Shown piece after piece: positions 3 to 9,183 of a stretch of DNA of 37,590 bases. Both the position numbers and the translations under genes were made by a program. The DNA comes from Sulfurospirillum sp. (GTDB lineage: Bacteria; Campylobacterota; Campylobacteria; Campylobacterales; Arcobacteraceae). The DNA is taken from the NCBI GenBank assembly GCA_030491005.1, contig JAKZMJ010000023.1:81029-118618 (forward strand), written 5' to 3'. The stretch's first letter is position 1, and the number at the start of each line of letters is the position of its first letter. The notes under the pieces were generated by a model that made no database searches, was not told the DNA's origin, and saw only the letters and a program-made list of their open reading frames with translations.

Positions 3-493
3 TTGAAGTATTTTTTTACATTTTCTGTTGAAAAAAAATCAATAATTCTTGATTACTTTGCAGGAAGTGCTACAACTGGACACGTAGTAATAAACTTAAA
101 TCGTGAAGACAATGGAAAAAGAAAATATATCTTAGTTGAGATGGGAGAATATTTTGATAGTGTTACAAAGCCAAGAATACAAAAAGTAATATATACGGAT
201 AGTTGGAAAGATGGCAAACCAACTACTAAAAATGGTGTATCTCAAATCTTCAAATACTTCAAACTTGAAAGCTATGAAGATACTCTAAATAACCTTGAAT
301 TCAAAAGAACAAAAGAACAAGCCGATGCTTTAGGCTTGTATAATGAAGCTAAAGAAGATTATATACTCAATTATTCTTTAGATGTAGAGAGCAAAGGCTC
401 ACTTTTAAATATAGATACTTTCAGCACTCCATTTAATTACAAACTTAAAATTGCTACTTCAAGTGTTGGAGAAACACAAGAAACAGCTATTGA
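3..493 (+). pseudogene. mod: Type III R-M DNA methyltransferase (Mod), interrupted; upstream segment (5' end outside window)
   Basis: This is the middle part of a beta-class adenine DNA methyltransferase of type III restriction systems. Near its start is the AdoMet-binding motif I (DYFAGSATTGHVV), followed by NREDNGKRKYILVEMGEYF and then VTKPRIQKVIYTDSWKDGKP, the usual C-terminal third of Mod proteins. In this class the catalytic DPPY motif precedes motif I, so it should lie outside the window. The frame is open from the window edge; the TTG at position 3 is not a real start. The gene is broken after codon AT(T)GA at 493 by an insertion sequence, and its last 81 bp (413-493) are repeated at 1522-1602, where the coding frame resumes. 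As it stands it would make a truncated protein that runs about 26 codons into the element (stop near 572). The family assignment is confident; the recognition site cannot be told. Confidence 0.85.
413..493 (+). repeat. 81-bp perfect direct repeat, copy 1 (left of IS in mod)
   Basis: Positions 413-493 are identical base for base to 1522-1602 (offset 1109). The repeat is part of the mod coding sequence and brackets the truncated IS481-type element. It is far longer than the 6-bp target duplication seen at the other copy of the same element. Recombination between the two copies would remove the IS and rejoin mod in frame. Confidence 0.95.
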
Positions 494-504
494 CCTTAAA
501 TATT

Positions 505-1027
505 TCAGGTTTCGTTTGAAACCAACTTTGAACTGCATTAAATGGAGTTCTAACTTTCAATTCTTTTCTTAAAGAACCATGTCTTCTATTGAAGTTGTAG
601 TATATCAAAAATTTATTTAAATCTTTTTTAACATCATCTATATTTTCATAGTCTTGGGCTTTGATTGTAGCATTTTAATAGTTCCGTTTACTCTTTCTAC
701 CATTCCATTGGTTTGTGGTGTATATGGAGCTGTTAGTCTATGTTCTATACTATCTTCTTTACATTCTACATCAAACTTGTGATTACCACTTACAATTCCT
801 TTGCCTCTTGCCCATTTATCTGTAAATTCCAATCCATTATCTGTTAAAATATGAGTTAAGTAAAAAGGAAAAAACTCTTTACAAACTTTTAGAAATTCAA
901 CTGCATTATTAGATGATTTGTTTTCATACACTTTGTAATATAGTAGCCTTGTAGCTCTGTCTATTGCTACAAATAGATAAAACTTTTGTTTATCAAACTT
1001 TGGTAAATAGGTTACATCTATATGCAA
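505..1027 (-). pseudogene. IS481-like transposase catalytic part (orfB), frameshifted and truncated
   Basis: This is the DDE integrase-core half of the transposase, with HIDVTYLP (first Asp), ILTDNGLEF (second Asp) and GMVERVNGTIK (Glu). After GTIK the frame breaks: at about 672-676 this copy has four A residues where the complete copy has five, giving a premature stop at 638. Beyond the shift the remaining codons can still be followed to about 505, where the element is cut. It has no ATG start; translation would depend on a -1 shift from the preceding orfA, as in the complete copy. It is a dead gene. Confidence 0.85.
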
Positions 1028-1419
1028 ATATCCAGGTTCGTATTCTTTAAATTTCTTTGCTTTTCTTTTTGTTCTTGTGGGACTCTATTTATATCAAAGG
1101 CTTTTAAAGTTCTATAGATATTACTTCTATTTGCATTTGGGATAATATCAACTATTGTATCTGTTAAGTCATCTAGCTCCATCCAAGTCATTGTCCTAAC
1201 TACTTTTATTAACTCTTTTTCTAAAGATGTTAAAGTTGTTTTTATATTATGTGGTCTTGAACTTTTATCTTCAATAAAATCCCTATCTTTCCATTTAGAG
1301 ATAGTTTTAATATTTAGATTATAATTATTTGCTAATTCAACATTTGTTAAATTAGATTTCTGTATTATTTCTCTTATGTGCTGGTTTGTTCTAGCATTAG
1401 AGTGATAGGTTTGTGACAT
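1018..1419 (-). CDS. IS481-like transposase N-terminal part (orfA, helix-turn-helix)
   Basis: This 133-aa protein begins MSQTYHSNARTNQHIREIIQKS, the form of start seen in IS481-family transposases. Its region around residues 25-50 (NVELANNYNLNIKTISKWKDR) reads as a DNA-binding helix-turn-helix. It is identical to the orfA at 24768-25169. Its last residues are out of frame: the conserved continuation (KKFKEYEPGYLHIDVTYLP) is in the -1 frame, overlapping orfB by 10 nt. On its own it would bind terminal repeats but not catalyse transposition. Confidence 0.8.
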   Translation of the reverse strand: MSQTYHSNARTNQHIREIIQKSNLTNVELANNYNLNIKTISKWKDRDFIEDKSSRPHNIKTTLTSLEKELIKVVRTMTWMELDDLTDTIVDIIPNANRSNIYRTLKAFDINRVPQEQKEKQRNLKNTNLDICI

Positions 1420-1521
1420 ATTTTAAATCCTTATGTGTTGTAAAGATTTTACACTTATGTTGTTTAATCTATCACTTTCTTATTTATGAAGACAGGCAAC
1501 CATAACGTAGTGAAACTGGAC

Positions 1522-1602
1522 AGATACTTTCAGCACTCCATTTAATTACAAACTTAAAATTGCTACTTCAAGTGTTGGAGAAACACAAGAAACAGCTATT
1601 GA
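1522..1602 (+). repeat. 81-bp perfect direct repeat, copy 2 (right of IS in mod)
   Basis: This is an exact copy of 413-493, lying directly against the terminal inverted repeat of the IS (last IS base 1521). The mod frame continues through it into the C-terminal segment without any disturbance. Confidence 0.95.
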
Positions 1603-1909
1603 TTTAGTAGAAACATTTAACTACCTTTTAGGGCTTGAAGTTAAAAGAATGGAGATGATAAAAGATTATATTATTGTAGAGGGGCAAAATCTTAAAGGGG
1701 ATAAAATCCTTATTATTTGGAGAGATGGACAAAGTAATGAAAAGCTAAATGAGTTCTTCAAAACTATGGCTTGGAGTTCAAAAGACAGAGAGTTTGACAT
1801 CATCTATGTAAATGGGGATAATAATTTAGATAACCTTAGAAAAGATGAAGACCACCATAAAGTGAAGTTGATAGAGCAAGAGTTTAAAAAATTGATGTTT
1901 GGAGAATGA
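1522..1909 (+). pseudogene. mod: Type III Mod, C-terminal segment after the IS
   Basis: This is the last ~128 codons of mod: FSTPFNYKLKIA, then AIDLVETFNYLLGLEVKRM, IIVEGQNLKGDKILIIWRDG and a final EFKKLMFGE, ending in TGA at 1907-1909. It is the expected C-terminal domain of type III Mod proteins. An internal ATG at 1649 gives an 86-aa open frame but has no reason to be a genuine start. Removing the IS and one 81-bp repeat joins it in frame to the upstream segment. The next gene begins one base after this stop, so translation is normally coupled. Confidence 0.85.
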
Positions 1910-1910
1910 T

Positions 1911-4115
1911 ATGAGTGAAGAAATAATTGAATTAAAAAAAATAAGTTATCACTTAAAAAATTTATATTTAGACCCTAATAATTATAGATTTGTTGATAAT
2001 GAAGATTATAAAATAGTTGAAAATGAAAATATATATGATGAAAAAATTCAAAGAAGAACAAAAACTTTTATTGAGGGTAATAAAAGAGAAAATTTAAAAG
2101 ACTTAGTATTAAGTTTCAAAGAAAATGGTTTTTTAAATGTTGATATTATACAAGTCAAAAATTTAGGAAACAATAATTACTTAGTTCTTGAGGGAAATAG
2201 ACGGGTAGCAACACTAAAAGCATTACAGGAAGATTATGAAAATGGACTTGATATTGGTTTATTAAACCCTGGAATATTTAAAAGTGTTCCATTTGAAATA
2301 CACGATAATGAAGATGATAAAAAGCATTTAATTATTATGGGATTAAAACATATTAGTGGAAATAAAAAGTGGTCAGCAATTAATCAAGCTCAATTAATTT
2401 ATGATTATCTTAAAGCATATTGGGAGTTAGAAAGATATTTTGTAGAAGAAACAAAATTATGTAAATCACTTGGTATTACAAAAGTTAAATTAAGGTCATC
2501 GCAAAGGGCATATCACTTAATAGTTGAATATAAAAAAAGTGATTATGGAGACCAATTTAAAAGTGATGATTATTCAATATTTGTAGAAATAATTAAAAGA
2601 CCAAATATTAAAGAATGGTTAGAGTGGGATGACACTTGGTATAAAGCTCATAATCAATATAACTTACAAAGATTATTCTCTTGGATTTCAAATACGGAAG
2701 AGATTAAAAATGAAGATAATGATGATGAAGAATATGAAGAATATGAAGAATTTGAACCAATAATAACCAAATCAGCAGAAATAAGAGATTTAGCAATTTT
2801 TATAAAAGATGATAATGCTTTAAACATTATGGAAAAATATAAAAGTGTATCAAGAGGTCTAATAGCAAGTGGAGAGATAGATAAGCAAAATTATGAGGCT
2901 TCTCTTAAAGAGTTAGCCGATGGTATCAATAAATTAAAAAGCTATAAGGATATGATTTCTTTATCTGATGCTGATGTTATTGAAAGCATTAAAAAAGAAT
3001 TTTTGGAATTAATTCCTAAAAAAAGTTCATTAGATATTGGTCAAGGGAATTTTTCAGTTTGTTTTGAATATGGAAAAAATACAACTCAATTTGATAGTAT
3101 TGAGATAACTAATTATAAAGTTTTTAAAGATTTCAGTATTAACAAACTAAACAAAATAAATATTTTTGCTGGGTTTAATAACAGTGGAAAAACTTCACTT
3201 CTTGAAGCAATATATTTATTAACAAAACAAAATGATATTACTTCATTTTTAGAGTTAATTAGATTAAAAAACAAACTCAGTTCATTAAATCCAAATTGGT
3301 TAAATCAAGTTTTTGATGAAGGTATTATTGTATCTGGTATATTTAACCATATTGAAACTTCTATACATTTAGAGAAATTTGAAGCAACAAATATTGATAA
3401 AAAGGATGATTATATAGCATCATATAAACTTGATGCGAAAGTTGATAATAGAACTTTAAATAATACAATTCATACATTTGGTTATGAAACATTAAAAAGA
3501 GATAATAGCAAGGTAGAGCATCTATGTAATGCTATTTTTAAAAGTCCTTATTTTTATAATCTTAATGAGATACTTCAAACATACACAAAGAGTATTGAGT
3601 ATAAAACAGAAGATGGTAAGTTAGCTATCAATATGGTTATAGAGTTTATAAAAGGTATTGATAGTTCTATTAATGATATAAGACTAAGCGATAGTAATAA
3701 TATAAAAAGATTTATAATTGACTCAGATAAATTCAAAGAAAAAAATCTTGATATAACAAATTATGGAGAAGGCTTACAGAGAATATTTGAAATTGCTTTA
3801 GGTTTTGCTTATTCGCAAAATGGGATTTTATGTATAGATGAATTTGAAACAGCCATACACAATACATTGTTAAAAAGCTTTACAGAGTTTGTTCAAAAAT
3901 TAGCTCATATGTTTAATGTTCAAGTCTTTTTAACTTCACACTCAAAAGAATGTATAGATGCCTTTGTGAATAATGATTATAATAATGATGAAATATCAGC
4001 ATACTTTTTGGAAAATGTTAATAATGAGATAAAAACAAAGTTTGTTAAAGGCGAAAGATTAAAATATCTTGTAGATAATCTTGACCTTGATATAAGAGGT
4101 AATACTAATGAATAA
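1911..4115 (+). CDS. ParB/sulfiredoxin-like domain fused to OLD/ABC-type ATPase (defence-associated)
   Basis: This 734-aa protein has two modules. Residues ~1-150 look like a ParB/sulfiredoxin-type domain, with LVLEGNRRVATLKAL at about residues 91-105 matching the EGNRR nucleotide-binding motif of that fold. An acidic linker (DNDDEEYEEYEEFE) lies at about 260-280. From ~390 there is an AAA_15/OLD-like ATPase: Walker A GFNNSGKTS at ~421, Walker B LCIDEFE at ~642, and an H-loop LTSHSKE at ~675. ATG 1911 is chosen over the in-frame ATG at 1899 because GGAG lies 7 nt before it and it starts right after the mod stop. Its stop overlaps the TOPRIM gene by 8 nt. ATPase/TOPRIM pairs are known from OLD, Gabija and PARIS systems; the ParB fusion and the place between mod and res are unusual. 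The exact function is inferred. Confidence 0.75.
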   Translation: MSEEIIELKKISYHLKNLYLDPNNYRFVDNEDYKIVENENIYDEKIQRRTKTFIEGNKRENLKDLVLSFKENGFLNVDIIQVKNLGNNNYLVLEGNRRVATLKALQEDYENGLDIGLLNPGIFKSVPFEIHDNEDDKKHLIIMGLKHISGNKKWSAINQAQLIYDYLKAYWELERYFVEETKLCKSLGITKVKLRSSQRAYHLIVEYKKSDYGDQFKSDDYSIFVEIIKRPNIKEWLEWDDTWYKAHNQYNLQRLFSWISNTEEIKNEDNDDEEYEEYEEFEPIITKSAEIRDLAIFIKDDNALNIMEKYKSVSRGLIASGEIDKQNYEASLKELADGINKLKSYKDMISLSDADVIESIKKEFLELIPKKSSLDIGQGNFSVCFEYGKNTTQFDSIEITNYKVFKDFSINKLNKINIFAGFNNSGKTSLLEAIYLLTKQNDITSFLELIRLKNKLSSLNPNWLNQVFDEGIIVSGIFNHIETSIHLEKFEATNIDKKDDYIASYKLDAKVDNRTLNNTIHTFGYETLKRDNSKVEHLCNAIFKSPYFYNLNEILQTYTKSIEYKTEDGKLAINMVIEFIKGIDSSINDIRLSDSNNIKRFIIDSDKFKEKNLDITNYGEGLQRIFEIALGFAYSQNGILCIDEFETAIHNTLLKSFTEFVQKLAHMFNVQVFLTSHSKECIDAFVNNDYNNDEISAYFLENVNNEIKTKFVKGERLKYLVDNLDLDIRGNTNE

Positions 4116-4947
4116 AATTATTATTGTCTTTTGTGAAGGACAGCACGACATCGCTTTTTTATCAAAGATTTTATTTGTGGATGGATTTACAGCTTATAAT
4201 AAAAAAATAAAAAATTTTATTGAGCCTTTGAATAAACAATATGAAACTGAATTATCAGAAAAAAAGATTGCTGATAAAAAGCTTGGATTTCAATCTGAAC
4301 ATATGCTTCCATCCGTTGCCTTACAAAAAGATGAGAATATATTAGTGTTATTACATAACTTAAATGGCGATACTGAAGTTAGTAAAAGAAAACAAATCTT
4401 GGATATGTATCAAAATATACAAAGTGAAGATGATGATTTTACAAAGGAATTCAACTTAAACTTTAGGTTTATATATTTTTTTGATGCTGATAAAAAAGGT
4501 ATTGCCGCAAGAGTGGATGATATTAATAATGAGTTAGAATTAAGTGCTAACTTAGAACATAACAATATTAACAAGATTGACCTATATGAATGGGGCTGCT
4601 ATGTATTTCATAAAGATAAAGATAGTGGAGACTTAGAAGATATATTATTAGACTTAATGAAACCAAATAATGAAAAAATTTTTATAGAGAGTTTATCTTT
4701 TTTAACTACCAATAATTTAAGTGAAGAAAGACAAAAAGAGTTTATCTGTAATGATACAGAAGAAAAATATAAAGATAGAATTAAGTTCAAAGAAAAAAAA
4801 TCAATCATTTCAATTGCTGGACAATTACAATTTTCAAGTATGAATAATTCTGTAATCATTGCCAAGAGTGATTATATAAAAAAGAGTGATATTTCTTCTA
4901 ATACACATTGTATAGATATATCAAAATTATTTTTGGAAAGTATATAA
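4108..4947 (+). CDS. TOPRIM-like nuclease-type protein (DUF3226-like), partner of the ATPase
   Basis: This 279-aa protein has TOPRIM-fold signatures: IIIVFCEGQHDIAFL near the start (the Glu of motif I) and FIYFFDADKKG around residues 122-132 (the DxD motif). These are followed by YEWGCYVF and DSGDLEDILLDLM, typical of DUF3226-type proteins. Such domains cleave DNA or RNA using divalent metal. The ATG overlaps the end of the ATPase gene by 8 nt, so the two are translationally coupled and probably work together as a split OLD-like ATPase-TOPRIM pair. The res gene starts 2 nt after the stop. The family label is by motif recognition; enzymatic activity is not shown. Confidence 0.65.
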   Translation: MNKIIIVFCEGQHDIAFLSKILFVDGFTAYNKKIKNFIEPLNKQYETELSEKKIADKKLGFQSEHMLPSVALQKDENILVLLHNLNGDTEVSKRKQILDMYQNIQSEDDDFTKEFNLNFRFIYFFDADKKGIAARVDDINNELELSANLEHNNINKIDLYEWGCYVFHKDKDSGDLEDILLDLMKPNNEKIFIESLSFLTTNNLSEERQKEFICNDTEEKYKDRIKFKEKKSIISIAGQLQFSSMNNSVIIAKSDYIKKSDISSNTHCIDISKLFLESI

Positions 4948-4949
4948 GT

Positions 4950-7900
4950 ATGAAGTTCAACAAAAAGTTAGTATTAAACTCCTACCTATTATCACTATTT
5001 GGTGTAAAAGATTTTGATGAGTTAGCAAAAGACTTAAAAGCTTCACGACTTGAAGATGTTGAAGAAGATGGTAGCTCTCTTTTTTATCACGAGCTAAAAG
5101 ATAAGCCAATAGGCACAAGTAAGCAAATCACTGATGATAAACTTTTAGAGTATGATGAAAATATTGTAAAACATACTAAGACTATGGGTCGTGGTATAAA
5201 ATGGAAATACTTCCAATACTTATCACTGCTTTTTATAGAGATATATTTAGATAAATATTTTGATGATAAGAAACAACTACTTGAAGACCTAAACACTTTT
5301 CTTATAGAGTTTAATACTGATATAGAAACAAAAGAAAAACTTACAGAGTATGAGGAAAAAGAGCTAAATAAATTAGCTTTATATAATGCCACTGGCTCAG
5401 GAAAAACACTTTTACTTCAAATGAATTTATTACAGTTTAACCATTACTCAAATGGTAAAATGAAAATCAATAAAACAATTTTGATTACACCAAATGAAGG
5501 ATTGTCAAATCAACATTTAGAAGAGTTCCAAGCTTCAAATATAGAAACAGAAATATTTAATAAAAATCAAACATCATCTTCTGGACATAAACAAAGTAAA
5601 ACAAATTACAGTGATATTGAAATTATAGAGATAACCAAGCTTAGCGAAACTGATGGAGACAAGACAGTAGCCGTTGATAGTTTTGAAGACAATAACCTTG
5701 TGTTTATTGATGAGGGACACCGTGGTGCTAAAGGCGAAGTGTGGAAAACGAATAGAGATAAACTTTCGGCTAAAGGTTTTGCTTTTGAATACTCAGCTAC
5801 TTTTGCTCAAGCGATTAATAGTAGCACTGGAACAACTAAAAAGAAGTTAGAGAACGAGTACACTAAGGCAGTTATATTTGATTATAGCTACAAGTATTTT
5901 TACAAAGATGGCTATGGTAAAGACTACTCTATTCTAAATCTAAGTGAAGACAATGAGGAGATAAGACAAACTTACTTAACAGCTTCACTACTAAGCTTTT
6001 ATCAACAAATGAAAATATTTGATAGTTCAAGAGTTATGATAAAACCTTATCTTATTGAAAAGCCTCTTATGGTTTTTGTTGGTGGAAGTGTTAATGCCGT
6101 ATTTAAGAAAAAGAATGACCTTGGAAAAAATATAAAAGATGCCAATGGTAAAGATATTGAAACCTCTGATGTGATTGATGTATTGCTTTTCATAAATGAG
6201 TTTATCAAAAATAGAAGTGAGAGTATCACTAATATAGAAAAAATTATGAGCCAAGACAGTGGATTGACTAAGAAAGATGACAGTGATATATTTGCTAAAA
6301 AGTTTGAGTTTCTAAAGCATATAAAAAATACAAAAAAGTTTAATGCTACTGCTATGTTTGATGATATATTAAACATAATATTTAATGCTTCAAGTGGTGG
6401 TCTTCATATAGAAAACTTAAAAGGTGTAGATGGCGAGATAGCTCTTAGAGTTGGCGAAAATGAATACTTTGGTGTTATCAATGTTGGAGATAGTCAAAGC
6501 CTTATAAAACTATGTGAAGCCAATGGTATGAGTATAACAAGTAAAGATTTTTCAAACTCTTTGTTCAAGACTATAAACAACACTACTTCAAACCTAAATA
6601 TTCTTATAGGTTCAAAGAAGTTTAGTGAAGGTTGGAGTTCTTGGAGAGTATCCACAATGGGGCTTATGAATATAGGAAAAAAAGAGGGTTCTCAGATAAT
6701 TCAATTATTTGGTCGTGGAGTAAGACTAAAGGGTTATGATTTTTGCCTAAAAAGAAGTAATTCCATTAAAGATAAAAATCTTGAAAGCAAATATCAAGCA
6801 ATTGAAACATTAAATATATTTGGACTAAAAGCTGATTATATGAAAGCTTTTAAGGAATACCTAAAAGATGAAGGTGTTCCAACTGATGAGATAGAAACAT
6901 TTGTGTTGCCATTGATATATGATAATACCTACAAGACTAAGAAACTTAAAGTGTTAGATATTAGAGCTGATAAAAAAGATAGATTCAAAGTAGAAGAAAA
7001 ACTTGATTTAGAATATGTTCAAACAACTACTATACATAAAAGAGTAGTCCATAGTTTATATAAGCCAGTTGATGAGATAGCAAGTTTAAGTAAAAGTGGA
7101 AATAAACTTGAATTGACAGTTGCGAAACTTGAAGATGCCCACCTTAGCTTTATCAGTATTGATAATTTATTTTTCGCACTACAACAGTTCAAAAATGAAA
7201 AAGGTTGGAGTAATCTAAATATCTCTAAGACAAATATTCAAGAGCTGCTTAGAACTAATGATTGGTATAATTTATATGCTCCAGAGAAAGTTATGGAGAT
7301 AAGCAGTTTCAAAAGACTTGCTTATTTTGAGCAGATTATGATTACACTACTTAAAAAATATATGAAAGCATTTTATGAGTATGAAAAGAGTAAGTGGGAA
7401 AGTAAATATTTAGAATACAGAGAATTAGATGAAGAGAGGGACAAAGCCAATTTAATCAAAGACTACACCATAACAGTAGCAGATAAAGAAACAGAGCTTA
7501 TAGATAGGTTAAATGCTCTTAGAACAATGCTTGAGAGTGGCAAGATTGATGAAGTTGAACTCAAAAATCTATCTGAAAAAGATTTTAGTGCTTTTGTATT
7601 TGATAAACATCTTTATAAGCCTCTTGTATTCAAAGATAAAGGGGAAACAGCTTTATCTATCAAACCTGTAGAACTCAATGATGGAGAAAGAGATTTTGTT
7701 AAAGATTTAGGTGTTTATATAAAAAGAACAACTGATGAATACAAAGATGTAGAGATATATCTACTTAGAAACCAAAGTAAAACAGGTCTTGGCTTTTTCA
7801 CAGAGGGTAATTTCTATCCAGATTTTATTATGTGGATTATCAAAGATGCTAAGCAATACATTACTTTTATAGACCCAAAAGGTATAAGAAACTCAAACCC

Positions 7901-8135
7901 AAAAAATGACCCTAAGATGAACTTAGCAATTATTATAAAAGATATTGAAGCAGAACTTGGCGATACAAACACAGTGTTGAACTCATTTATACTTTCAAAT
8001 ACTTCATTATCTACGTTGAATGAGCTACACACAAACTTAACACATCAGTTCTTTGAAAATAAAAATGTATTGTTTCAAGTTGGAAGTCATAAGAATAGTT
8101 ATATTGGTGTTATGTTTGATAGAATATTAAAATAA
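4950..8135 (+). CDS. res: Type III restriction enzyme Res-like helicase-nuclease
   Basis: This 1061-aa protein is a superfamily 2 helicase with a C-terminal nuclease. Motif I ATGSGKT is at ~147, motif II IDEGHR at ~253 (a DEGH box), motif III SAT at ~282, and motif VI QLFGRGVRLKG at ~585. Near residues 957-975 YPDFIMW plus TFIDPKG form a PD-(D/E)XK-like site. In type III systems Res needs Mod to recognise DNA and then cleaves after ATP-driven communication between sites. The start at ATG 4950 is preferred over the upstream in-frame ATG at 4908, which would overlap the TOPRIM gene; GGAAAG lies 9 nt before 4950. With mod broken, Res probably lacks its targeting partner in this chromosome state. 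Confidence 0.85.
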   Translation: MKFNKKLVLNSYLLSLFGVKDFDELAKDLKASRLEDVEEDGSSLFYHELKDKPIGTSKQITDDKLLEYDENIVKHTKTMGRGIKWKYFQYLSLLFIEIYLDKYFDDKKQLLEDLNTFLIEFNTDIETKEKLTEYEEKELNKLALYNATGSGKTLLLQMNLLQFNHYSNGKMKINKTILITPNEGLSNQHLEEFQASNIETEIFNKNQTSSSGHKQSKTNYSDIEIIEITKLSETDGDKTVAVDSFEDNNLVFIDEGHRGAKGEVWKTNRDKLSAKGFAFEYSATFAQAINSSTGTTKKKLENEYTKAVIFDYSYKYFYKDGYGKDYSILNLSEDNEEIRQTYLTASLLSFYQQMKIFDSSRVMIKPYLIEKPLMVFVGGSVNAVFKKKNDLGKNIKDANGKDIETSDVIDVLLFINEFIKNRSESITNIEKIMSQDSGLTKKDDSDIFAKKFEFLKHIKNTKKFNATAMFDDILNIIFNASSGGLHIENLKGVDGEIALRVGENEYFGVINVGDSQSLIKLCEANGMSITSKDFSNSLFKTINNTTSNLNILIGSKKFSEGWSSWRVSTMGLMNIGKKEGSQIIQLFGRGVRLKGYDFCLKRSNSIKDKNLESKYQAIETLNIFGLKADYMKAFKEYLKDEGVPTDEIETFVLPLIYDNTYKTKKLKVLDIRADKKDRFKVEEKLDLEYVQTTTIHKRVVHSLYKPVDEIASLSKSGNKLELTVAKLEDAHLSFISIDNLFFALQQFKNEKGWSNLNISKTNIQELLRTNDWYNLYAPEKVMEISSFKRLAYFEQIMITLLKKYMKAFYEYEKSKWESKYLEYRELDEERDKANLIKDYTITVADKETELIDRLNALRTMLESGKIDEVELKNLSEKDFSAFVFDKHLYKPLVFKDKGETALSIKPVELNDGERDFVKDLGVYIKRTTDEYKDVEIYLLRNQSKTGLGFFTEGNFYPDFIMWIIKDAKQYITFIDPKGIRNSNPKNDPKMNLAIIIKDIEAELGDTNTVLNSFILSNTSLSTLNELHTNLTHQFFENKNVLFQVGSHKNSYIGVMFDRILK

Positions 8136-8223: not shown

Positions 8224-9183
8224 ATGAAAGATTATATTCCACCATATACAATAACATCAAAGATTTTAAAACTTTCTACTAAAATAAGTGAAGAGTTAAC
8301 AAAACTTGAATTTGTTTCATCTTCAAAAGCATCTCTTATGCTTAGAAAAAAGAATCGTATTAAAACATTAGCAGGTACTTTAGAAATTGAAGGTAATTAT
8401 CTAGGCGAAGAAAAAATCACAGCTATCTTAGAAGGAAAAAGAGTATTAGCAACAACTAAAGAACTTTATGAAGTAAAAGGTGCTATAAAAGCTTATGCGA
8501 ACTTAGATAAATATAGTTTTGATAATATAGATGATTTGTTAAAAGCACATAAAATATTAATGAGCAATATTTTAAATAATGCAGGAAGCTTTAGGAGTGT
8601 TAATGTAAAAGTAGCTAATCACATAGCTCCAAAAGCTAGTTTTGTAAATGATTTAATGTTACAATTGTTTTTATGGCTTAAAAATAGTGATGAACATATG
8701 CTTTTAAAATCTTGTATTTTTCATTATGAGTTTGAATTTATACATCCATTTACAGATGGTAATGGAAGAATAGGAAGACTATGGCAAAGTGTAATATTAA
8801 ATACCTATAATCCACTATTTTCTTTTTTAGCAATTGAGAGTATAGTAAGAGATTATCAAGAACAATATTATGAAGCTATTGAAAAATCAACCACGATGGG
8901 ACAAAGTACACCTTTTATTGAGTTTATGTTATCAATGATTTTAGACTCAATAAAAGTATCTTTAAAAAGTGACCAAAAAAGTGACCAAAAAAGTGACCAA
9001 AAAAGTGACCAAAAAATATTATCACAAATTACTAAAAATAATAAGGTAACAATCAAAGAATTATGTGAAATACTTTCAATGAGTGAATCAGGAATTAAAA
9101 AAGTTATAAAAAAATTAAAAGATGAAAATAAGTTAAAAAGAGTAGGGAGTTTAAAATCAGGATATTGGGAACTAGTAATATAA
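8224..9183 (+). CDS. Fic family protein with N-terminal inhibitory helix and C-terminal winged helix
   Basis: This 319-aa protein is a Fic (FIDO) enzyme, a family that usually transfers AMP from ATP onto target-protein hydroxyls. The catalytic motif HPFTDGNGRIGR is complete at ~174-185. Residues ~52-57 (TLEIEG) match the (S/T)xxxE(G/N) inhibitory motif, and its N-terminal location means class II self-inhibition. Residues ~268-318 (TIKELCEILSMSESGIKKVIKKL) form a winged-helix DNA-binding domain, so the protein may also be a regulator. The linker contains four SDQK units coded by a 12-bp tandem repeat. AAGGAAAG lies 5 nt before the ATG. Fic genes of this form often sit beside restriction-modification loci; whether it belongs to the upstream operon or has its own promoter is unclear. 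Confidence 0.9.
   Translation: MKDYIPPYTITSKILKLSTKISEELTKLEFVSSSKASLMLRKKNRIKTLAGTLEIEGNYLGEEKITAILEGKRVLATTKELYEVKGAIKAYANLDKYSFDNIDDLLKAHKILMSNILNNAGSFRSVNVKVANHIAPKASFVNDLMLQLFLWLKNSDEHMLLKSCIFHYEFEFIHPFTDGNGRIGRLWQSVILNTYNPLFSFLAIESIVRDYQEQYYEAIEKSTTMGQSTPFIEFMLSMILDSIKVSLKSDQKSDQKSDQKSDQKILSQITKNNKVTIKELCEILSMSESGIKKVIKKLKDENKLKRVGSLKSGYWELVI
8968..9016 (+). repeat. 12-bp tandem repeat (x4) inside fic
   Basis: The unit GTGACCAAAAAA occurs four times without error from 8969 to 9016. It encodes SDQK repeated (residues ~249-264), between the catalytic Fic domain and the winged helix. Because the unit is a multiple of three, changes in copy number would alter linker length without shifting the frame. 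Confidence 0.95.

Follow-up and report, generated by a model that had tools for sequence, protein, structure and literature searches.

A PDC-M38-type ATPase-TOPRIM gene pair at the mod/res junction of a type III restriction operon in Sulfurospirillum sp.: a probable mobile defence module in an exchangeable position

PARIS, proposed as class 4 of the OLD proteins, combines the ATPase AriA with the TOPRIM protein AriB, which are encoded by separate, adjacent genes (PMC10568477; statements on papers cited by PMC number refer to excerpts of these papers). A further ATPase-TOPRIM pair is listed by PADLOC as PDC-M38 (phage defence candidate, multi-gene 38), and the PDC set of PADLOC was gathered by guilt-by-embedding (PMC12988326, PMC10855318). 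Here, we describe a PDC-M38 pair that lies between the genes mod and res of a type III restriction-modification (R-M) operon in Sulfurospirillum sp. The analysed stretch of DNA, called the window throughout, comprises 37,590 nucleotides (nt) and corresponds to positions 81029 to 118618 of contig C23 (JAKZMJ010000023.1) in an assembly of 2.69 Mb (GCA_030491005.1; G000 in our numbering, where G stands for genomes, C for contigs and L for loci). With a probability of roughly 0.77, we regard the pair as an independent, mobile OLD/PARIS-like ATPase-TOPRIM defence module, inserted in an exchangeable cargo slot between mod and res of a SNF2-Mod-Res type III operon.

Arrangements of this general kind are already known. 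TOPRIM-linked OLD ATPases were proposed as back-up effectors of BREX (PMC12839542), and a paper on HEPN proteins proposed multi-pronged R-M operons in which ABC-ATPase, Fic/Doc and RhuM proteins occur (PMC3710099). The BREX OLD/TOPRIM modules, as well as PrrC/RloC, RhuM and Doc in R-M operons, share with our locus the idea of a second effector inside a methylation-based defence operon, but they concern other host systems and other effectors. DarTG2 separates hsdS from hsdR in a type I R-M operon, at a junction that was called a potential recombination hotspot (PMC12255303). This is again an independent defence module in an R-M operon; it differs from our case in the type of the host system, in its toxin-antitoxin cargo and in having been experimentally tested. 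Together with the guilt-by-embedding origin of the PDC set, these cases establish the kind of arrangement. In a literature search that did not cover bioRxiv, no title or beginning of an abstract among those listed mentioned the particular order mod-pair-res or the variety of cargo between mod and res, so that an earlier description is possible; the excerpt of PMC10853773 contains nothing on this order. A preliminary description, made from the sequence of the window, had named no described system with this exact order. The pair as such is already catalogued by PADLOC. Its anti-phage role has the status of a PADLOC candidate, and no paper naming "PDC-M38" was found in the literature search.

The ATPase gene (1911..4115, plus strand) encodes an OLD/Rad50-type ABC ATPase that is preceded by a putative ParB/Srx-like N-terminus, and its product matches the PADLOC model PDC-M38A over its full length (residues 1-730, E = 5.7e-299). 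It is followed by the TOPRIM gene (4108..4947, plus strand), whose product, a TOPRIM-fold DUF3226 protein, matches PDC-M38B in the same manner (residues 1-275, E = 1.7e-107). With both genes adjacent and A before B, the pair itself is no different from PDC-M38; particular is its location inside a SNF2-Mod-Res type III operon. The assignment is made by model match, independently of PADLOC's own score and coverage rules. PARIS proper was rejected as a label. The ATPase reaches E = 3.7e-17 with the AriA model, the PDC-M38 models fit far better, no AriB model matches the TOPRIM protein at E<=0.01, and all six of its PADLOC matches at this level are PDC-M38B. With PARIS the pair shares the encoding of ABC ATPase and TOPRIM nuclease by separate neighbouring genes, but it differs in the extra ParB-like N-terminus of its ATPase.

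The preliminary description had reported the gene order together with a 1-nt gap, an 8-nt overlap and a 2-nt gap, and all of this stands: the mod stop at 1909 is followed after 1 nt by the ATPase ATG at 1911, the ATPase and TOPRIM genes overlap by 8 nt, and 2 nt separate the TOPRIM gene from res (4950..8135, plus strand). However, the mod gene of the window is broken by an insertion sequence (IS) and starts upstream of the window. Its 3' part (3..494, plus strand) belongs to an open reading frame (ORF) that begins at L009:6863, the locus on C23, and reads into the IS, while a C-terminal part beyond the IS (1522..1909, plus strand) holds the stop codon. Hence, there is no intact four-gene unit at the window copy. 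An intact mod of 980 codons is located on contig C2 (L010:6760-9702), in a near-identical second locus whose contig end cuts inside res. The activity of the window copy is doubtful, judging by its broken mod, and an intact copy is present in the same assembly.

The family assignments made earlier were borne out by profile matches, for Mod in the intact copy. The C2 Mod carries an N6-methyltransferase domain, as a type III Mod should, with matches to PADLOC MTase_III PDLC03646 (E = 4.6e-228) and Pfam N6_N4_Mtase. Res matches REase_III (E = 2.7e-192) and ResIII; it combines the SF2 helicase of a type III Res with a C-terminal PD...DxK nuclease-like motif that was read by eye. AAA_15/AAA_21 profiles recover the ATPase, and the TOPRIM protein scores 28.7 bits with DUF3226 against a Pfam cut-off of 27. 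The pair is a module of OLD-type ATPase and TOPRIM nuclease, tightly packed within the type III operon, which makes the second-effector role suggested for it earlier reasonable.

It had further been proposed that the four genes form one dedicated composite system. In such a two-layer unit, the pair would register that Mod/Res has been lost or inhibited, for instance by a phage anti-restriction protein, and would then fire its nuclease, as with PrrC next to its R-M system or PARIS with Ocr. The tight embedding of the pair is in agreement with this proposal, but its distribution is not. A match at E<=1e-60 was found in 10 of 298 genomes of the order, the ParB-type form being present in seven. 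In the six ParB-type genomes other than that of the window, neither Mod nor Res adjoins the pair (G250 is cut after the ATPase, and the ATPase of G104 is divided between two contigs). Scanning of genome contigs provided 29 loci from several phyla, including these six genomes, and a scan of viral contigs provided 12. BLAST of up to 10 kb of flanking sequence gave no Mod or Res match at E<=1e-4 beside the pair, neither in the 29 genome loci, 10 of which lie on contigs shorter than 9 kb, nor in the 12 viral contigs. The order, class and genome-contig draws overlap (G007, G081, G035, G250, G287 and G104 are L032, L034, L039, L040, L041 and L058), and the loci are therefore not all independent. Next to the ATPase, 19 of the 29 genome loci carry a TOPRIM gene of the window type (P0003-like) and three a shorter partner of ~187 amino acids (aa); five are cut by contig ends and two have no partner.

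Away from Mod and Res, the pair occurs in other surroundings. In L056 (L056:1599-17558) it is located inside a type 1 BREX operon with the order brxA-brxB-brxC-pglX-pair-pglZ-brxL, each gene being confirmed by profile. In L063 it stands among terminase, portal and replication genes of P2 type. Relatives of the L063 portal or terminase occur on eight of the 12 viral contigs, the remaining four being L062, L064, L065 and L066; other phage genes are present on L062 and L066. The label "P2like_prophage", which the tree carries on nine rows (L055 and eight viral contigs), is too narrow for L062, L064 and L066. Two genomes hold a free pair and, on a different contig, a Res gene (G104) or a Res fragment (G007). 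In the ATPase tree, the window copy is sister to the free copy of G104 (100/100) and nested among free copies, mostly from Campylobacterota. Plasmids yielded no full-length relative of the ATPase (none of 139 records covers 80% of the query), and phages no relative of the TOPRIM protein and only a weak ParB-like match, in four Wphi/P2 records. In E. coli genomes, a prophage copy of the pair had no close counterpart.

From these sequence comparisons, the pair appears as an independent element and not as a fixed part of the restriction system. The preliminary description had named an outcome that would speak for a passenger, namely a pair that is inserted at random in many loci while mod-res without it is the normal form in close relatives. 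This is largely what we find, since the pair occurs elsewhere without Mod and Res, and other Mod-Res loci have different cargo or an empty junction; close relatives within the genus are not informative, because the one other genome of the genus that was searched has no Res. No Res was detected at E<=1e-40 in 11 pair-bearing genomes either, an empty answer that alone shows nothing.

The mod/res junction was surveyed from the side of Res. The searches covered 296 genomes of the order (six matches, including the window genome), 298 of the class (three matches, all already found) and the phyla of G503, G507 and G504 (matches in 3 of 259, 7 of 178 and 9 of 179 genomes), furthermore plasmids (27 records, 14 of them inspected, the other 13 mostly being near-copies of the Klebsiella type) and viral contigs (three matches). 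Both mod and res are visible at 35 junctions, of which 10 are filled and 25 empty. Filled junctions make up 4/4 in the order, 2/3, 3/4 and 0/8 in the phylum draws, 0/2 on viral contigs and 1/14 on plasmids. Outside this count remain G128, G809 and G942, which carry cargo but no mod on the contig, as well as G007, G906, G1096 and L124. G889 was counted as filled, though its mod consists of two ORFs and its genes are not tightly packed; the junction of the Klebsiella plasmid pKAM622_3 (L100) was counted as empty, the short gene ahead of res being a piece of mod. In this plasmid, the mod of the SNF2-Mod-Res operon is spread over several ORFs and res has its full length.

At least eight kinds of cargo were observed. 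The PDC-M38 pair occupies the junction in the window genome, a Fic gene in G104, an AlbA/HATPase_c_4 protein in G223, a PHP-AAA protein that matches Ppl together with an AlbA protein in G002, HEC-01A/B in the Aeromonas plasmid pE31A and in G560, RhuM (PDC-S05) in G645, DUF1016/YhcG (PDC-S02) in G797, a PDC-M36A-like gene and a weak Abi_C match in G921, and DUF559 in G889. In seven of the 10 filled loci, a cargo protein has its best PADLOC match with PDC-M38, SoFic, HEC-01 (twice), PDC-S05, PDC-S02 or PDC-M36A; the AlbA proteins match only pAgo-type models, and these partially, and the scan left out the DUF559 protein of G889. HEC-01 (Hma-embedded candidate, ATPase plus DUF4276) likewise places an ATPase with a small partner between mod and res. 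It differs from our pair in its protein families and in its ATPase of ~375-430 aa, which has no ParB-like N-terminus.

A search for conserved synteny, which had been suggested as a check of the composite system, found no other mod-pair-res locus. Among the loci examined the order is restricted to this genome, and the Mod-Res loci hold other cargo or none; the dedicated four-gene system was rejected on these grounds. The guard function outlined above may still draw on several points: between pglX and pglZ of BREX the pair is found for a second time beside a DNA methyltransferase gene, HEC-01 ATPase pairs occupy the same junction in two loci, and related proposals exist for OLD-TOPRIM back-up in BREX (PMC12839542) and for multi-pronged R-M operons (PMC3710099). 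Against it stand the lack of a Mod/Res neighbour at the other pair copies examined and the presence of Fic, RhuM and DUF1016 genes at the junction, which indicates that a specific contact with Mod/Res is seemingly unneeded for maintenance. We consider a guard of this kind unlikely. Far less credible still is the view that the type III enzyme includes the pair as a fixed additional subunit, required for restriction or for the control of Mod/Res. The single tight operon at both loci of this genome would fit, but 25 of the 35 related Mod-Res loci are empty and nine of the other 10 hold different genes, so that the survey already contradicts it.

The borders of the cargo are sharp. In bins of 30 nt, the identity of the window to L082 and L081 is 0.90 and 0.97 in the last mod bin, falls to about 0.5 in the next one and to near chance beyond it. 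At the start of res, it recovers to 0.87 and 0.80. The corresponding values for L080 are 0.70 ahead of the mod stop and 0.80 at the start of res. A GGAG motif lies in the last mod codons directly ahead of the cargo ATG in the window, in L082 and in L081, but not in L080. Ribosome-binding motifs that overlap the upstream gene are common in coupled genes and not special by themselves. A bolder version of our reading would see the junction as a dedicated effector slot, in which unrelated defence cassettes replace one another cleanly in the interval from mod stop to res start and, served by the ribosome-binding motif in the last mod codons, provide a co-translated second effector that is maybe triggered when restriction is blocked. 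We hold this version only tentatively and think it somewhat less likely than not. The word slot, as used here, reflects recurrence and variety of the cargo and not a measured excess over a control junction, in samples that overlap and are modest in size. What follows from one odd operon is a testable rule, namely that the mod/res junction of this type III family can host interchangeable defence genes, and the slot reading would offer a route to new effectors. It also brings a natural comparison: related R-M systems with different cargo or none, set beside the same pair in free form, in BREX and in prophages, may distinguish lone effectors from guards of restriction.

Both proteins retain their catalytic motifs. 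The model of the ATPase domain resembles Rad50, SMC and PtuA (Z ~17) and was also likened to RecF. Its catalytic residues are invariant across 31 aligned sequences, with conservation of H677, in its presumed role, and of the residues that we take to be the Walker A and Walker B motifs. This alignment (A3) was made without incomplete or duplicate loci (L040, L043, L054, L057-L061, L065, L070, L071; L061 and L055 are one and the same stretch). The TOPRIM alignment (A4) further omits loci with a truncated, split, short or missing TOPRIM partner, and E10, D126 and D128 (the latter two as a DxD motif) are invariant in its 25 sequences. The predicted TOPRIM model (mean pLDDT 89.5) fits PH0156 best among the three matches considered here (Z 15.9, rmsd 3.4, 218 aligned residues), followed by the C-terminal region of OLD (Z 9.3, rmsd 5.2, 174 aligned) and GajA (Z 7.7, rmsd 4.2, 153 aligned); unrelated folds score Z 6.5 and below. 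In three loci, ParB-type ATPases are accompanied by the shorter partner of ~187 aa (L035:4941-5507, L036:2380-2943, L037:2477-3037), which matches PDC-M38B weakly (E ~1e-6).

In comparison with G104, dN/dS is ~0.2 for the ATPase gene and 0.17 for the TOPRIM gene, the dS of the latter (1.18) being close to saturation. Both genes thus seem to be under purifying selection, which bears on a further explanation: the pair could be a chance passenger without benefit, or could serve a purpose other than defence, such as DNA repair or partitioning. The Rad50/SMC/RecF-like ATPase domain and the ParB-like N-terminus would suit the latter, and an IS already interrupts one of the two mod copies. Selection, the invariant catalytic residues in both alignments, and the sites at which the pair is found, i.e., BREX, prophages and an R-M junction that elsewhere holds defence candidates, make this explanation very improbable.

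A ParB/Srx-like domain at the N-terminus, as proposed in the preliminary description, is plausible, with ParB profiles reaching the region at scores below their respective cut-offs. The region carries an EGNRR motif that is invariant in all 31 sequences and, as we assume, resembles the GERR box of ParB. A profile of the N-terminal region matched just two PDB sequences at E<=1, SbnI (E = 0.32) and a "ParB-like nuclease domain protein" (E = 0.45), neither of them significant. The VIA matches listed for the ATPase model do not include ParB; this list is filled by the ATPase domain. As a separate observation, phage Wphi (AY135739, 31561-32421, gp98) and a P2 record encode a protein similar to the ParB-like N-terminal region of a prophage-borne copy of the ATPase, with 24% identity over 42% of the query.

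Several points weigh against the view of the pair as an independent defence module in an exchangeable slot. The match of the N-terminus to Pfam ParB_N is below threshold (E = 0.0081; 16.6 bits, where the cut-off is 26.3), and only 8 of 31 family members reach E<=0.01. With a Z below 8, the structural match to GajA is weak by the tool's own yardstick. The many empty junctions, including all eight of one phylum draw, mark the cargo as dispensable. The BLAST screen for neighbours of the pair used only this Mod and this Res as queries, a procedure that unrelated R-M types could escape. Finally, the tight spacing at both loci of this genome could be a sign of local integration.

If the independent-module reading is correct, an ATPase-TOPRIM module was inserted at the mod/res junction of the SNF2-Mod-Res operon, and its Rad50/OLD-type ATPase would restrain a metal-dependent TOPRIM nuclease. 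The ParB/Srx-like N-terminus might act as the sensor or as a part that binds DNA or nucleotides. We infer that a phage cue would release this switch, whereupon the TOPRIM nuclease would cut nucleic acid, probably as a back-up upon failure of restriction. The pair would thus probably form a second line of defence, by analogy with the OLD-TOPRIM modules of BREX, the multi-pronged R-M operons and DarTG2 in its R-M operon.

The two loci of this genome offer some minor observations. C23 and C2 are identical along ~28 kb of the upstream stretch that was compared, the mod genes differ in their central part, which we take to be the target-recognition part, and the sequences agree to 99.4% downstream of it. 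This pattern points to a sequenced population with two mod alleles, or else to a duplication. Strain mixture, duplication and recombination of the specificity region are candidate causes of the divergence. The IS that breaks the window mod (495..1522, minus strand) contains two ORFs, of which 638-1027 encodes an integrase core domain and 1018-1419 has no Pfam match, and more than 15 long copies of the IS exist in the genome. An exact direct repeat of 81 bp flanks it on both sides (413-493 and 1522-1602), the second copy opening the C-terminal part of mod. A comparably long flanking repeat was not seen at six other IS copies of the genome; tandem duplication and assembly artefact are candidate origins.

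Upstream of mod, a gene for an SNF2 helicase and a PemK-like gene are found. Membership in DISARM was rejected, as the helicase, at 699 bits, stays below the NCBIfam DrmD_b cut-off of 950, and a drm model is the best match of none of the six other locus proteins scanned. The PemK/MazF-like gene (L009:6367-6789) overlaps the SNF2 gene and precedes mod, and no antitoxin gene was noticed adjacent to it. On the other side of the operon, 3' of res, a Fic gene (8224..9183, plus strand) matches the SoFic model and shares 54% identity with the Fic protein that fills the mod/res junction of G104.

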